From Bythopirellula goksoeyrii (lineage in GTDB: Bacteria > Planctomycetota > Planctomycetia > Pirellulales > Lacipirellulaceae), in the NCBI RefSeq assembly GCF_008065115.1, contig NZ_CP042913.1, positions 443,211-507,210 on the forward strand: 64,000 nt of DNA, in the 5' to 3' direction. The position numbers and the translations under genes are program-made. Below, in pieces: positions 51,715 to 58,066 of the stretch; position 1 is the stretch's first letter; each line of letters starts with the position of its first letter. The notes beneath the pieces are model-generated. The model was not told the origin of the DNA. It searched no databases and saw only the letters and a list, made by a program, of their open reading frames with translations.

Positions 51715-53493
51715 ATGCGAATTCACTCTTGGCTTTTGGTTGGCGCGATCTGCTTTTTACTCATGCTCCCGTCAGCTCAAGCTGAATTCGACACGATTAT
51801 TAATGCTCCGCCTGACACAGTCCCCACGTCGATTGACTCTAACACGCAGCTGAATCTTTCTGAGGGGGGCGCCATCGGCAGCTTGTTTCATGCGGGGCAC
51901 TTTCATGGCACAAGCACTAATGTTGAAGTCAACATTATGGGTGGGACTGTTGATGATTATCTACGGGCGTACAACGGCAGCACAGTCAATATTTCAGGCG
52001 GATCAGTTGGCAACCATTTTGAATCCTATGCAGGCAGTGTAGTCAACATCACTGGAGGAACGGTTGGTCGTTCTTATGACGCCTCCTTGAACTCATTGCT
52101 CAATGTTTCGGGCGGAAGTGTCGGGACAGAATTTACTGCCGGATTTAGTAGCATTGTCAATATCAGTGGAGGTTCATTCGACGAACGGTTCATTGCCAAA
52201 GATAGTTCTAAGGTCCGGTTGTCGGGTGGTACGTTCGGTCGCAATTACAATTTTTCGGTTAGGGTCGAAAGCGGCAGCGAATTCACCCTTGTGGGTAACG
52301 AGTTCAGAGTAAATGGCACTCCGCTTACCGGCCTCGAAACACTTGGTACTTCGCTTCAGCTAGACCTGACGGATTCCGACCTGCTCAGTGGCATCTTTGC
52401 TGATGGCACCCCATTCGCCTTTCACCGCCGCGATGACAGCTTCGCGAGTGGAACTCTCCATCTCGAATCAGCGACTATTCCTTCCATCGGCCCCGCCATT
52501 GTGAATGCATCCACAGACCCCCTTCCTTTAGGTATACGCAACGGCCAAACCCTTTGGGTACGAGACGAAGCCGTGGTTCCCCACAGCTTCAATCTGGGAC
52601 TGGGTAGCACTTTATTAATTGAAGGAGGCGCCTTAGGTAGAAACCTTGAAGCAGTGGATGCTACCGTCAACATCCTGGGCGGTTCCGTGGGAGATCGCTT
52701 TGATGCTCTTGCTGGTTCAGCCGTGAATGTTTCTGGTGGATCGATTGGTGACTACTTTTTTGCGAGGGATAGTACAGTCACGGTAGCCGGCGGTACCATT
52801 GGCAGTTTTTTTCGAGCTGCCGATTCAACCGTTGATGTTTTCAGTGGCTCGCTTGGGCATAACACTTCTGCCGAGGAGGGTAGCGAAGTGCGATTCATCG
52901 GTGGCGAAGTTCCTGGTCGCTACATTGCAGGCGGCGGAAGTACGACAAGTATTGCTGGTGGTCTCTTCAATGAGATGGCAGAGTTTCTTGCCTACGAAAA
53001 CAGCTCTGTACACCTATACGGCACGCAGTTCGAGCTGGATGGTCAGGATATCACGAGCTCGCTTACTTATGGTTCGCAGGTTACGATATTCGATCGTGAT
53101 GTTAGGCTCACTGGACTGCTGGCTGACGGTTCGCCAATAACCATCGACCTCTATCTCGAAGGTGGTTCGGGAGCGGACATCTTTAGTCCCAATGCTCAGT
53201 TGACGATTACCCTCATCAAACCTGGCGACTTCGACCAAAACGGTGTCGTCAATGCCGACGACCTTACTGATTGGCGGAGTGCGTATGGCACAACTACCTC
53301 GAACCCGTTCAACAGCGGTGATGGTGACGGAGATCGAGATGTCGACGGAAGTGATTTTCTCGTTTGGCAACGGCAACTTGCAAGTTACAACCTGGCACTT
53401 TCCAATGATACAGTTCCTGAGCCGACTGCATTAATGCTCGGTATTTTTGCTGCACTCGTGATGATTTCCTCCCAAAGAGTTAGTCTTTTTTGA
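51715..53493 (+). CDS. PEP-CTERM protein with beta-solenoid repeats and dockerin-like region
   Basis: 592 residues. The signal peptide spans about 1-23 (WLLVGAICFLLMLPSAQAE). Two repeat blocks of roughly 20-residue units (STVNISGGSVGNHFES, SVVNITGGTVGRSYDA) suggest a beta-solenoid; the second block starts near residue 295. At about 500-560 there is a dockerin-like calcium-binding region: GDFDQNGVVNADDLTDWR and GDGDRDVDGSDFLVWQRQ. The C-terminus is a PEP-CTERM tag: VPEPTALMLGIFAALV, then a basic end. Exosortase-dependent cell-surface sorting is expected. The dockerin-like motif is common in planctomycete PEP-CTERM proteins and need not mean a cellulosome. Confidence 0.9.
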   Translation: MRIHSWLLVGAICFLLMLPSAQAEFDTIINAPPDTVPTSIDSNTQLNLSEGGAIGSLFHAGHFHGTSTNVEVNIMGGTVDDYLRAYNGSTVNISGGSVGNHFESYAGSVVNITGGTVGRSYDASLNSLLNVSGGSVGTEFTAGFSSIVNISGGSFDERFIAKDSSKVRLSGGTFGRNYNFSVRVESGSEFTLVGNEFRVNGTPLTGLETLGTSLQLDLTDSDLLSGIFADGTPFAFHRRDDSFASGTLHLESATIPSIGPAIVNASTDPLPLGIRNGQTLWVRDEAVVPHSFNLGLGSTLLIEGGALGRNLEAVDATVNILGGSVGDRFDALAGSAVNVSGGSIGDYFFARDSTVTVAGGTIGSFFRAADSTVDVFSGSLGHNTSAEEGSEVRFIGGEVPGRYIAGGGSTTSIAGGLFNEMAEFLAYENSSVHLYGTQFELDGQDITSSLTYGSQVTIFDRDVRLTGLLADGSPITIDLYLEGGSGADIFSPNAQLTITLIKPGDFDQNGVVNADDLTDWRSAYGTTTSNPFNSGDGDGDRDVDGSDFLVWQRQLASYNLALSNDTVPEPTALMLGIFAALVMISSQRVSLF

Positions 53494-53761: not shown

Positions 53762-54436
53762 ATTACCAGCCAAGAAACAAAACCACTCGCAGAGGGGTTC
53801 TCATTAATTGAGAACTGCTACTCACAAGTAGAGTGTGACTCCATAATTGCACAACTGGAAACGTTCACTGGTGCGGGTACGCGTTGTCTCCTAGACAACG
53901 GTTGGTGCCAAGCACTATCGAAATCACTCAAAAACCGATTGGCTGCCTCAATACCAGATATTGAACCGATGGTCGCGGTGCAGTGCACCTTCTTCAATAA
54001 ATCGCCGACGAGCAACTGGTTCGTAGCGTATCACCAAGATCGCAGCATTCCGGTCGCTTCGTACGTATCCCGGAAAGATTGGCCCGGTTGGTCACTGAAG
54101 GAGGGGATGACCTTCGTTCATGGTACTGACGAGTTGCTGTCAGACATGGTCGCCGTAAGGCTGCACTTAGATGATTCCACTCCAGACAATGGCCCTCTTC
54201 GTGTAATTCACAACTCACACCGCGATGGCACCCTCTCGCCCCACGATATTGATTTGATTCGTGAATCTTCGGAAGAAATTCAACTGACCGTTGAAAGAGG
54301 TGGCATCGTCGCCTTTCGCCCGCTCCTGCTTCACGCGTCATCGAAATCCCGTGCAACGGACAATCGTCGCATCCTTCATTTTTTGTTCGGTCCATCTGAG
54401 CTCCCGCACGGGCTTAAATGGAGACGCATTGTGTAA
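53762..54436 (+). CDS. Phytanoyl-CoA dioxygenase-like protein, probable ATT start
   Basis: 224 residues if translation begins at ATT 53762. The PhyH-type iron site is visible: HQD at 91-93 (AYHQDRSIPV) and the distal His191 in LLLHASSKS, with Arg in the terminal RRILHFLFG. This is a mononuclear iron, 2-oxoglutarate-dependent oxygenase; the substrate is unknown. The frame is open from 53753 after a TGA, and codons upstream of 53939 read like the family's N-terminus (CDSIIAQLETF, LLDNGWCQALSKSL), but contain no ATG, GTG or TTG. ATT 53762 follows GAGG by seven bases, so a rare AUU start is the best guess; TTG 53939 would delete this part. A frameshift or sequencing error is the alternative. Confidence 0.82.
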   Translation: MTSQETKPLAEGFSLIENCYSQVECDSIIAQLETFTGAGTRCLLDNGWCQALSKSLKNRLAASIPDIEPMVAVQCTFFNKSPTSNWFVAYHQDRSIPVASYVSRKDWPGWSLKEGMTFVHGTDELLSDMVAVRLHLDDSTPDNGPLRVIHNSHRDGTLSPHDIDLIRESSEEIQLTVERGGIVAFRPLLLHASSKSRATDNRRILHFLFGPSELPHGLKWRRIV

Positions 54437-55298: not shown

Positions 55299-56159
55299 GT
55301 GGCAATTCCTCGACGAACCCAAGCCGTACCACTGACTAGGTCAACAGACCGTCCTGCGTACTTGGCCGATTTACCCCATGTGGGTGAGAAACTGGCCTCG
55401 AATCGCGAACAGCGAACTCTGCCCGCAGCTACCAGCAGCTCAGAGCAACCTACCGTTTCAACGCACCCTGCTTTTGCAGAAATCATTGCGTTGGATCGCG
55501 GCAGATCTCACCCAGTTGCCCCTGGTTCGGTCGGGAAACTCTTTCTGGACAGAGCTCACGTCGCGGAGGACGACTATGAAGGATATGAAGCATCCGTTGA
55601 CCGCAGACCGGCCGATCCGCAGCCTTCGCGGCAGCATCGGCGAGGTTGGCGAAGACTTTTCTCGCAAGCTCACAACCTATTGGCGCCTTTTGCAGGACTC
55701 ATCGTTACACTGGCATTGCTGACCTCTGCGGGGCTTTTATTTTGGCTCATATCGCGTGGACAACCGGCAGAACTGGATCTAAGGGACCTAGAATACTATG
55801 ACGGCGCCCTCAGCATCCAAATAAGTGAATCCGAGCCAGCGTCATCGGCCATCCCAGCCGATCAAGCACTTGAGGCAACCGAGGCAGTTCAAGAACCAAC
55901 CGGCGCCACACAAGCGGCAGCACCAGTTGAGAAACCAGTCGAACCGATTGTCGAAGAGAGCGTCCAAGCCTCCTCGCCCGATGTAACGGCTTCGATTCCC
56001 TTGGGGCAAATCAGCTTCCCAACCACAAGTACTCCGTTCGCATTCGACTACAGCAAGGCTTTCGATACGGCTACTGCGGAGTCCTCGGAAAAGTTTCATG
56101 GACTGCCAGAAGTAGCTGAGCGCGAGAATTCCTCCGCAGAAAACTCCGTTGCCCGTTAA
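55299..56159 (+). CDS. Single-pass membrane protein, first gene of ATPase cluster
   Basis: 286 residues from GTG 55299, preceded by AAGGA; TTG 55251 would add 16 residues. The N-terminal ~135 residues are polar and cytoplasmic, with a basic stretch (RQHRRGWRRLFSQAH) just before one membrane helix (FAGLIVTLALLTSAGLLFWLI). The outer ~110 residues are rich in Glu, Ala, Pro and Ser (EATEAVQEPTGATQAAAPVE), probably a flexible periplasmic arm. No family is recognised. The plan (cytoplasmic basic region, one helix, disordered periplasmic tail) suits a scaffold for the two ATPases encoded next; the following gene starts 28 bp on. Confidence 0.75.
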   Translation: MAIPRRTQAVPLTRSTDRPAYLADLPHVGEKLASNREQRTLPAATSSSEQPTVSTHPAFAEIIALDRGRSHPVAPGSVGKLFLDRAHVAEDDYEGYEASVDRRPADPQPSRQHRRGWRRLFSQAHNLLAPFAGLIVTLALLTSAGLLFWLISRGQPAELDLRDLEYYDGALSIQISESEPASSAIPADQALEATEAVQEPTGATQAAAPVEKPVEPIVEESVQASSPDVTASIPLGQISFPTTSTPFAFDYSKAFDTATAESSEKFHGLPEVAERENSSAENSVAR

Positions 56160-56187
56160 TCACTTCGCCGTACTAGGAATTGACTCC

Positions 56188-57222
56188 ATGAGCAACATCG
56201 ATCAAGCGTTTATTAATGCGTATGCAGATCAATCGTCTGCAGTAGACCTACCGCGCAAACCACCCACCCATGGGACTCAGAGGCATCAGCCAAACGAAGC
56301 CGCTACGGTCCGGCTTTTTGGCAAAGAGGTTCATGACGGATCTTCCGTGCTTCGTTTCGACCCACCGAATCAGACATCTCAGCCAACGACCACGGTTGAT
56401 GCAGCCAGACAACAAACGCTCTCTGCTGTGGCTGCAGCGCAGCGTGCGAGTTTTTCGAATGCCGATCAAAGCGAGGAAACAATTCTGCTCCCACCGTTAG
56501 GGAATGATCGGCGCCCCTTGTCAGCTTTCGCAGCACCCCCTCGGCCAGTGCAAACCGCATTCAGCCCTGCTTTCGAAGTGGATGGTTTCCAGTGGCCAGT
56601 GATTACCGATCAATTGCTAGTTTCCACGAAGGAGTCACTAGCGCCCATTGTAGACTCACTGCTGGCCAATGCTCAGAACGGGCACGCACTAATCGGACTG
56701 GTGGGAACGCAATCAGGAGTCGGCTGTTCGACTGTTACCATGTGCTTGGGAAGAATGATCGCTCAAACGGGTGCCTCATTGGCTGTCGTTGATGCGAATT
56801 TTTCTCTGGGAAATCTAGCATCTAGTCTTGGACTGGAATTCGATCAGGGATGGGAGCACGTGCTGACAGGCGAAATCCCGCTGGCCGAGTGTGCAGTTCA
56901 TTCTCTCGCAGATGCCATGACGCTCATCCCTTTATGTGGGCCGGTTGAATCGTGCGAAGAACGTCTGGCAAGTATTCAAACTTCAGTGATCGCCGGAGTT
57001 CTCCGCTACCACCACGATATTGTCCTGGTGGATCTTGGCTCCCCTCTATCAACGCAGCAGGTTTCAGCAGTGCATAGCATGGTGGAACATTGCCGACTCG
57101 ATACAACGATCATCGTGGCGCCGAGTGGAACGACCGATCCAGCGACAGCCGATAGCATCGAATCCTTACAAAAACTGCTCGGGACGACTTGCATGGGAGT
57201 GATTGGCAATCACTCTGCTTGA
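56188..57222 (+). CDS. MinD/BY-kinase-like P-loop ATPase with Cys in place of the Walker A Lys
   Basis: 344 residues from ATG 56188. A disordered ~130-residue N-terminal part precedes a P-loop domain of the ParA/MinD/CpsD type. The Walker A reads VGTQSGVGCSTV, with Cys180 where Lys is expected; the Walker A' VVDANF (Asp202) and Walker B VLVDLGSP (Asp282) are kept, as are IVAPSGTTDPATADSIE near the end. The C-terminal Tyr cluster of bacterial tyrosine kinases is absent. It may bind nucleotide weakly or act as a regulatory partner. It overlaps nothing; the ExeA-like gene follows in 22 bp. Confidence 0.85.
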   Translation: MSNIDQAFINAYADQSSAVDLPRKPPTHGTQRHQPNEAATVRLFGKEVHDGSSVLRFDPPNQTSQPTTTVDAARQQTLSAVAAAQRASFSNADQSEETILLPPLGNDRRPLSAFAAPPRPVQTAFSPAFEVDGFQWPVITDQLLVSTKESLAPIVDSLLANAQNGHALIGLVGTQSGVGCSTVTMCLGRMIAQTGASLAVVDANFSLGNLASSLGLEFDQGWEHVLTGEIPLAECAVHSLADAMTLIPLCGPVESCEERLASIQTSVIAGVLRYHHDIVLVDLGSPLSTQQVSAVHSMVEHCRLDTTIIVAPSGTTDPATADSIESLQKLLGTTCMGVIGNHSA

Positions 57223-57244
57223 TCCATCGACTAGAAAGTCTCTA

Positions 57245-58066
57245 ATGTACGAAGAATACTGGCAGCTAGAAACAAAACCGTTTGAGCCGGCGAGCGATCG
57301 ACGGTTTCTGTTCCCCTGCCCTGGCCATAGTTCCACGCTGCACAAACTACAATACACGGTAGAAAACCGCCGTCCTGCTGCCCTACTCGCGGGTGCCGCT
57401 GGCATCGGCAAGACTTTGCTATGGCACGCGCTGGTGGATCAACTTGGCGAAAAGCTTGGCAAACACGCCCACCTGGTATTTCCCTTGATGTCGCCACGGG
57501 AAATGCTCGCCTTTCTGGCTGAGCAGTTGGGCACTCCGTTGGGAGCCAATCGACCTAGCATCGAAGAAAGCTTATGTGCCTTAAGAACTGTTTTGGTTCA
57601 AAATCGAACGCAGAAAAAATTGGCGATCCTGGCCGTTGATGAAGCCCATCTCTTGGAGGACGCGGGACTTCTTGAGCCTCTGCGGTTGCTGATGAATTTG
57701 CGTGAGGAAGATGAATCTCTCTTCACGCTGCTACTTATAGGGCAGGTCGCCACAATTTCCACCCTGGAAAGGATGAACGACCTCGACGAACGGATAGAAA
57801 TGAAAGTGCTGCTCAAGCCCTTCAGCAGCGAGGAAACCGCTGGCTACATCGAACATCGCCTCGTAGCAGCAGGAGCAACACGTCCTCTGTTCACACCCCA
57901 GGCACTGGAGACTGCTCACCAACTCACGGGCGGTATCCCTCGCCGGATCAATCGCTTGTGTGATTTGGCCCTTCTGGTGGGCTTTGCTGCCCAAGAAAGC
58001 CAGATTGATGACGCACAACTCCGCGCGGTCCAATCCGAATTGCTCACACTCGCTGCCGCGGCGTAG
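57245..58066 (+). CDS. ExeA/GspA-like AAA ATPase (PEP-CTERM locus ATPase type)
   Basis: 273 residues from ATG 57245. The N-terminus (MYEEYWQLETKPFEPASDRRFLF) is typical of ExeA and of the ATPase found in exosortase/exopolysaccharide loci. Walker A is GAAGIGKTLL (Lys56), Walker B is ILAVDEAHLL (Asp132), sensor residues lie in LLIGQV, and the C-terminal GIPRRINRLCDLALL motif is present. No periplasmic peptidoglycan-binding domain follows, unlike full ExeA. It belongs with the two preceding genes. Confidence 0.9.
   Translation: MYEEYWQLETKPFEPASDRRFLFPCPGHSSTLHKLQYTVENRRPAALLAGAAGIGKTLLWHALVDQLGEKLGKHAHLVFPLMSPREMLAFLAEQLGTPLGANRPSIEESLCALRTVLVQNRTQKKLAILAVDEAHLLEDAGLLEPLRLLMNLREEDESLFTLLLIGQVATISTLERMNDLDERIEMKVLLKPFSSEETAGYIEHRLVAAGATRPLFTPQALETAHQLTGGIPRRINRLCDLALLVGFAAQESQIDDAQLRAVQSELLTLAAAA

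Follow-up and report, generated by a model that had tools for sequence, protein, structure and literature searches.

A conserved three-gene set of one planctomycete order places a predicted BY pseudokinase beside an ExeA-like ATPase

Within a 64,000-nucleotide stretch of the Bythopirellula goksoeyrii genome (the window), we analysed three consecutive plus-strand genes at positions 55299-58066, here called g1, g2 and g3 and together the trio, and found that they are a real conserved set present throughout one planctomycete order. These three open reading frames (ORFs), separated by gaps of 28 (g1-g2) and 22 (g2-g3) bases, make up the cluster that an initial annotation had drawn from the sequence alone, and they encode a single-pass membrane protein, a protein that we read as a BY (bacterial tyrosine) pseudokinase on the strength of its predicted fold, and an ExeA-like AAA+ ATPase (Table 1). 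BY pseudokinases are already known in the company of polysaccharide co-polymerases, and the pairing with an ExeA-like ATPase appears to be new. Our favoured reading, which we hold to be probable though by no means secure, is that the trio is an envelope-associated assembly complex, GspAB-like in plan, in which a BY-pseudokinase adaptor stands between an AAA+ motor and a membrane protein.

Across 81 orthologues of g2, each from a different genome, the Walker A lysine position was occupied by Cys in 36, Arg in 20, Ala in 11, Val in 5, Thr in 3, Ser in 2, Gly in 2, Leu in 1 and Lys in 1, such that 80/81 were non-Lys and at least 22 changes at this position were needed on a quick tree built without that column. 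The initial annotation had pointed to Cys180 in place of this lysine beside intact Walker A' and Walker B motifs, which the translated sequence bears out, and had proposed that the conservation of Cys180 be checked; here the loss of lysine held across the orthologues and the cysteine itself did not. The conserved feature of g2 is thus the absence of lysine, with Cys being one of eight non-Lys residues seen at the site, and the middle protein does look like a non-catalytic partner, in line with the earlier suggestion of a non-hydrolysing one. Homologues with a normal lysine, named at the time as a sign to the contrary, did not turn up apart from a lone orthologue (L065) from a 70%-complete genome that has no g3, and its two congeners, also g3-less, have Arg. 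Around the missing lysine the P-loop was strictly kept, with Gly before the position in 81/81 and Ser or Thr after it in 81/81, and the Walker A' and Walker B aspartates were each present in 79/81, window protein included. As the lysine was lost order-wide while flanking residues remained conserved, we rejected the possibility that g2 is a pseudogene or a sequencing error.

A second sample, which overlaps in several cases with the genomes used for linkage below, gave the same picture: of 80 named-collection loci, 51 (up to L226) matched the g2 profile, and after exclusion of three in which the matched protein lay >6 kb away (Lys in each), the 48 kept, all within 600 bases of g3, had Lys in 0/48, with one (L168) having no residue at that site. 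Control proteins from the phylum were incompletely lysine-bearing (9/10 stand-alone and 12/16 Wzc-type BY-kinases), so lysine loss occurs elsewhere too, for example in a protein beside an exosortase in the B. goksoeyrii genome itself (L152; G000 C1 1233462-1236922). In this 776-amino-acid Wzc-type protein Ser takes the place of the Walker A lysine (SMEGSTT) and the last 40 residues contain no Tyr; it may be a second, fused BY pseudokinase.

Evaluating the fold of g2, an AlphaFold2 model built with 64 sequences gave a core at residues 121-340 with 10-residue confidence means of 87-98, an N-terminal helix at residues 3-12 (block 77) and a linker of low confidence. The closest solved folds were BY-kinase domains (Wzc, Etk, VpsO, CapAB, BceF), with Z of 20.9-24.0 over 196-204 residues versus at most 16.6 for MinD/ParA, which rules out the latter as the nearest fold and leaves only the BY-kinase half of the earlier "MinD/BY-kinase-like" label standing. 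MinD/ParA proteins carry the motif KGGxGK[ST] with both lysines, and this two-lysine motif is absent from g2 (GTQSGVGCST). On a quick tree with several long branches, the 81 g2 sequences formed one side of a branch against the 10 stand-alone and 16 Wzc-type kinases, at a Shimodaira-Hasegawa-like approximate likelihood ratio test (SH-aLRT) value of 99. Tyrosines in the last 40 residues averaged 0.17 in the 81 g2 proteins with a maximum of 1, and ranged over 0-8 in the stand-alone and 0-12 in the Wzc-type controls (4/16 zero, two of these keeping the lysine). The EX2RX2R ring motif before the P-loop occurred in 4/81 g2 proteins, the window protein not among them, and by pattern in 4/10 and 9/16 of the same controls. 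Since the controls for the Tyr cluster and for EX2RX2R are mixed, the lysine is the cleanest difference of g2 from BY-kinases. The best NCBIfam match, the tyrosine autokinase TIGR03018, reached 35.6 bits, below its curated cut-off of 230.65.

Given that no Tyr cluster remains, and with a predicted BY-kinase fold and no catalytic lysine, we read g2 as a BY pseudokinase. It may nevertheless still be fit to hold Mg-nucleotide, because it keeps both aspartates, the Ser/Thr that binds Mg and the backbone of the P-loop. By analogy, the lysine-less CapA1B2(K55M) carried ADP-Mg though none had been added (PMC3795738), and structure entries of Wzc K540M with MgADP in their titles are present among the solved BY-kinase entries listed.

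We next consider linkage, for which the sample was 97 genomes, that of B. goksoeyrii included, with g3 called at scores of at least 296 bits. Such a g3 was present in 78/97 genomes (counted by hand) and the next listed matches reached at most 177 bits, a score gap by which we take this g3 to be a distinct subfamily. The initial annotation had proposed a search for the gene order in other planctomycetes, and the linkage proved strong: g2 lay directly upstream of g3 in 78/78 g3-bearing genomes, 73 from sequence and 5 from coordinates alone (G003, G028, G071, G090, G091). An ORF with a segment above the hydropathy limit preceded g2 in 65/77 loci, and some upstream ORF did so in 76/77. As both the gene order and the lysine loss recur across the order, the trio is not a chance arrangement. 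Eight genomes have g2 without g3 (G022, G044, G051, G078, G079, G092, G095, G096), and in eight loci from Gimesia and further planctomycetes a g1-like protein is followed by g3 with no g2 between. Neither such a g3 nor a clear g2 was found in 11/97 genomes, some of them incomplete (G012, G014, G034, G048, G050, G065, G067, G080, G081, G088, G089), where a g2 profile search gave Wzc-size proteins and weak short matches. One weak match, at C3 220098-220859 of G034, a genome without g3, has three internal stops and is perhaps a decayed g2.

The third protein is an ExeA-like ATPase, as first annotated, and is intact. It matched TIGR03015 at E 5e-48 (163.8 bits, under the curated cut-off of 324.5) and PF13401 at E 9.3e-15, its Walker A (GAAGIGKT) and Walker B (DEAH) motifs are complete, the Walker A lysine (K56) is invariant in a 61-row alignment, and at 273 amino acids it consists of the AAA+ domain alone. 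Its presence goes with a feature of g2, the N-terminal helix, whose motif M[ST]xx[DN]xAFIxA[YF] begins nearly every g2. By pattern the helix was found in 70/73 loci with g3 (misses: L150, L072 degenerate; L060 none found) versus 1/8 without (L096, degenerate), with the missing helices in g3-less loci sought in three frames around the start (Fisher 2.7e-7, relatedness ignored). That the helix is missing in 7/8 genomes without g3 suggests that it may dock to g3.

The first protein has one hydrophobic segment by hydropathy, in agreement with its earlier description as single-pass, and gave no significant Pfam or NCBIfam match. Pfam scans found no Wzz domain in g1, either in the window or in six further loci that carry g2. 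PF16537, which we take to be the GspB HR domain, was likewise without a match, both in the window's g1 (scanned up to E 1) and in that of eight relatives (scanned up to E 0.1). Ahead of the transmembrane segment, 49/65 g1 proteins of g2-bearing loci carry a motif [VIL][LVIM]xx[LIV]Px[LIVMA] (shuffle mean 2.2), a strict pattern that fails to catch the variant of the window itself, YLADLPHVG, and that of its sister L078. Among g1 proteins of the g2-less loci (7 of the eight passing the hydropathy limit) this VLARLPxV-type motif occurred in 0/7 and a C-terminal LxGxI motif in 7/7, the latter being present in 30/65 of the g2-bearing set (shuffle 2.6). Because the motif resembles the segment preceding the kinase domain in several Wzc-type proteins, it might serve as that strand in trans.

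A read-through model is consistent with this idea. The three same-frame genes of a same-genus relative (L080) were modelled as one chain with stops as Gly, using 37 aligned rows in an alignment (A4) that excludes g1-only rows, which in an earlier and dropped alignment (A3) had fallen on g2. In this model the g1 motif becomes a strand at residues 23-27, with a predicted local distance difference test (pLDDT) value of 77 for block 21-30 and of 44 and 35 for the adjoining blocks. Structural alignment started at model residue 17/18 in 18/19 BY-kinase entries listed, paired with CapA 207/208 or Wzc/Etk 461/463 in 17/19 and with BceF 486 in one more; VpsO was the exception, its alignment beginning at model residue 31. 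The model thus predicts that the g1 motif lies where CapA gives its strand to CapB. The Staphylococcus aureus CapA/CapB pair (PMC3795738) is alike in that alphaA-betaA is contributed by a membrane modulator, itself a separate protein, to a BY-kinase domain in the cytosol; it differs in that CapB2 has kinase activity and a Y-cluster, and in that the CapA element is C-terminal (residues 194-222) whereas the g1 motif precedes its single transmembrane segment.

Table 1. Positions in the window of the trio and its sequence elements
Feature	Position	Strand	Basis
g1, single-pass membrane protein, orphan	55299 (GTG) or 55251 (TTG) to 56159	+	ORF list, hydropathy, Pfam/NCBIfam scans; one-transmembrane ORF also directly upstream of g2 in relatives
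g1 cytosolic motif YLADLPHVG (VLARLPxV variant), proposed strand docking on g2	55359..55385	+	motif counts and strand in read-through model of a relative
g1 transmembrane segment	55695..55751	+	hydropathy
g2, predicted BY-kinase-fold pseudokinase without Walker A Lys	56188..57222, ATG start	+	orthologue alignment, tree, predicted fold
g2 N-terminal helix MSNIDQAFINAY, proposed g3-docking element	56188..56223	+	predicted model and motif conservation
g2 Walker A GTQSGVGCST	56704..56733; Cys180 codon TGT 56725-56727 in Lys place	+	translated sequence
g2 Walker A' AVVDANF	56782..56802	+	sequence and orthologue alignment
g2 Walker B HDIVLVDLG	57013..57039	+	sequence and orthologue alignment
g3, ExeA/TIGR03015-like AAA+ ATPase, intact	57245..58066, ATG start	+	profile matches, motifs

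In the assembly complex that we favour, g1 would anchor the trio in the inner membrane, its cytosolic N-terminal tail would give the VLARLPxV beta strand to g2 in the manner of CapA and CapB, and its periplasmic tail, LxGxI-ended in many relatives, may contact the cargo. Without lysine and Tyr cluster, g2 should not be a tyrosine autokinase and may yet bind Mg-nucleotide, while the helix at its N-terminus, tethered by a long flexible linker, would draw g3, a soluble AAA+ motor, to the membrane. By analogy with GspA/GspB, g3 would then hydrolyse ATP and remodel or assemble an envelope structure. PMC9239104 describes GspA and GspB (ExeA/ExeB of type II secretion) as acting together on secretins, and the likeness lies in the placing of an AAA+ ATPase next to a protein of the inner membrane that has a periplasmic tail. 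Typical GspA has transmembrane and peptidoglycan-binding parts, both of which g3 lacks; in the trio, moreover, a pseudokinase stands between the two and no GspB HR domain was found in g1. A bolder version, which we regard as a possibility on the doubtful side, is that the lysine-less P-loop was selected as a nucleotide-sensing switch, such that an ex-tyrosine kinase, held at the membrane by a CapA-like strand of g1, controls when an ExeA-like AAA+ motor docks and fires, in an envelope machine of planctomycetes that is unrelated to polysaccharide co-polymerases.

Several observations weigh against this picture of an adaptor joining motor and membrane protein. The eight genomes that retain g2 without g3 imply that g2 must have some lone role. 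Counted as independent pairs, the association of helix and g3 comes down to only 2 where branches are supported (p 0.5), or 6 if every branch is used, and the confidence of the helix was no higher in the read-through model, which includes g3, than in the model of g2 by itself (block 70 vs 77). That read-through model is a single fused chain with a predicted template modelling (pTM) score of 0.44, its structural comparisons give only the first and last aligned residues, and the expectation had not been recorded before the result. When g2 was modelled by itself, a part of it predicted with low confidence, from about residue 40, took the same slot in 5/19 BY-kinase rows, and the slot may therefore be permissive. 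The control kinases partly lack the Tyr cluster or EX2RX2R, which makes both losses weaker signs than that of the lysine. Finally, co-occurrence with secretins was mixed and did not establish a secretin as the partner of the trio.

Secretins were found in 97/97 genomes. The family f7 genomes (G048, G065, G080, G088) have no trio, no TIGR03015-like ATPase at E 1e-40 and weak secretins only (best E 1.0e-15 to 3.8e-17), a joint absence of trio and strong secretin matches that might reflect joint loss; they also have 4-6 PF00482 matches versus 9-24 in the 16 other genomes given. Strong secretins were kept without g3 in four family f9 genomes and without a TIGR03015-like ATPase at E 1e-40 in G014, G022, G034, G092 and G096, and the trio is present in G003 (83% complete) with a weak secretin only (9.7e-19). 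This pattern of secretins and PF00482 is at most a hint of cargo resembling a type II secretion system.

Turning to other explanations, the trio could belong to an exosortase/PEP-CTERM exopolysaccharide system and have become displaced from it, with g2 and g3 as XrtA-type autokinase and ATPase serving polysaccharide export or protein sorting in trans, which we judge unlikely. The XrtA-associated NCBIfam families TIGR03018 and TIGR03015 are the nearest named families and top NCBIfam matches of g2 and g3, five stand-alone kinases outside the order adjoin an ExeA-like gene with their lysine kept, and upstream of the trio there is a dockerin protein whose tail looks PEP-CTERM-like. Against this, both family scores fall far under the curated cut-offs given above, g2 has neither the lysine nor a Tyr cluster, and g1 has no Wzz domain. 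The exosortases (PF09721) of the B. goksoeyrii genome lie at least 0.7 Mb from the trio, and although PF09721 occurs in 91/97 genomes each is found without the other: the trio is present without a PF09721 match in G056 and G072 (both 99% complete) and in G020 (66% complete), and PF09721 without g3 in, for example, G048, G050, G065 and G089. A link of the trio to exosortases is therefore unsupported, and the earlier view of a separate module with no exosortase or polysaccharide genes adjacent has held up.

Rather improbable, in our estimate, is that g2 acts like EcpK (Myxococcus xanthus) or HfsB (Caulobacter), steering a distant PCP-2 co-polymerase, with g1 and g3 as mere neighbours. In PMC12004946, a report in which the word "planctomycet" is absent, these BY pseudokinases are scaffolds for PCP-2 proteins, and they match g2 in their BY-kinase fold, lost Tyr cluster and lost catalytic residues; the authors' EcpK-EpsV model even has the partner's cytosolic tail supply an alpha1/beta1-like element, comparable to the g1 tail. 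The g2 genes without g3 also fit such a role. The partner there is a polysaccharide co-polymerase, whereas the near-constant neighbour of g2 is an AAA+ ATPase, with a one-transmembrane orphan on the other side that has no Wzz domain in any of the g2-bearing loci scanned, and by that source EcpK has lost all Walker motifs whereas g2 retains all but the lysine. Least probable, and hardly to be expected, is that g2 is an active enzyme with another residue replacing the P-loop lysine (Arg in many orthologues, 20/81, or one from a partner): the P-loop Gly and Ser/Thr and both Asp are conserved, and NCBIfam holds a Lys-to-Arg Walker A variant in the MinD group (NF047398, KGGVGR-variant AAA ATPase, compared by name and by weak matches to other proteins), but that family is not among the g2 matches, the g2 site varies freely with Cys, Ala, Val, Thr, Ser, Gly and Leu, none Lys-like in charge, also occurring, and the Tyr substrate cluster is gone.

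The surroundings of the trio recur in a family-dependent way, and since they vary between families we took them as synteny only. Assigning a function from the neighbours (LarB-like, NnrD-like, MetH-like, WD40-type kinase, large surface protein) was set aside, their names being given by eye or recall except for PF00731. In the window, 1.8 kb upstream of the trio, 51715-53493 encodes a repetitive secreted protein with a weak, below-cut-off dockerin match and a PEP-CTERM-like tail by eye, for which an NCBIfam scan found no family; three similar ORFs lie near the trio of L085. An ORF at 53939-54436 has a PhyH domain whose match is confined to the profile's second half (115-212 of 213); it may have an upstream start or be truncated. 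In several relatives (e.g. L080, L081, L082, L084, L085) two large ORFs precede the trio by about 3-9 kb, one WD40/kinase-like and the other surface-protein-like, its N-terminus resembling RRLExRRxLDA; both are named by eye and were not seen at the corresponding place in the window.

The planctomycete cell envelope has long been debated, and the trio is a conserved envelope module, by our reading, of one planctomycete order for which we found no prior description in the open-access literature, with no title or abstract among the matches listed describing it. Its g2 genes offer a natural P-loop series in which the catalytic lysine has been swapped for eight other residues, by at least 22 changes on one tree, with the phosphate and Mg positions fixed, and thereby a test bed for the lysine-less P-loop. 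If our reading is true, BY pseudokinases would extend beyond polysaccharide export to a motor ATPase.

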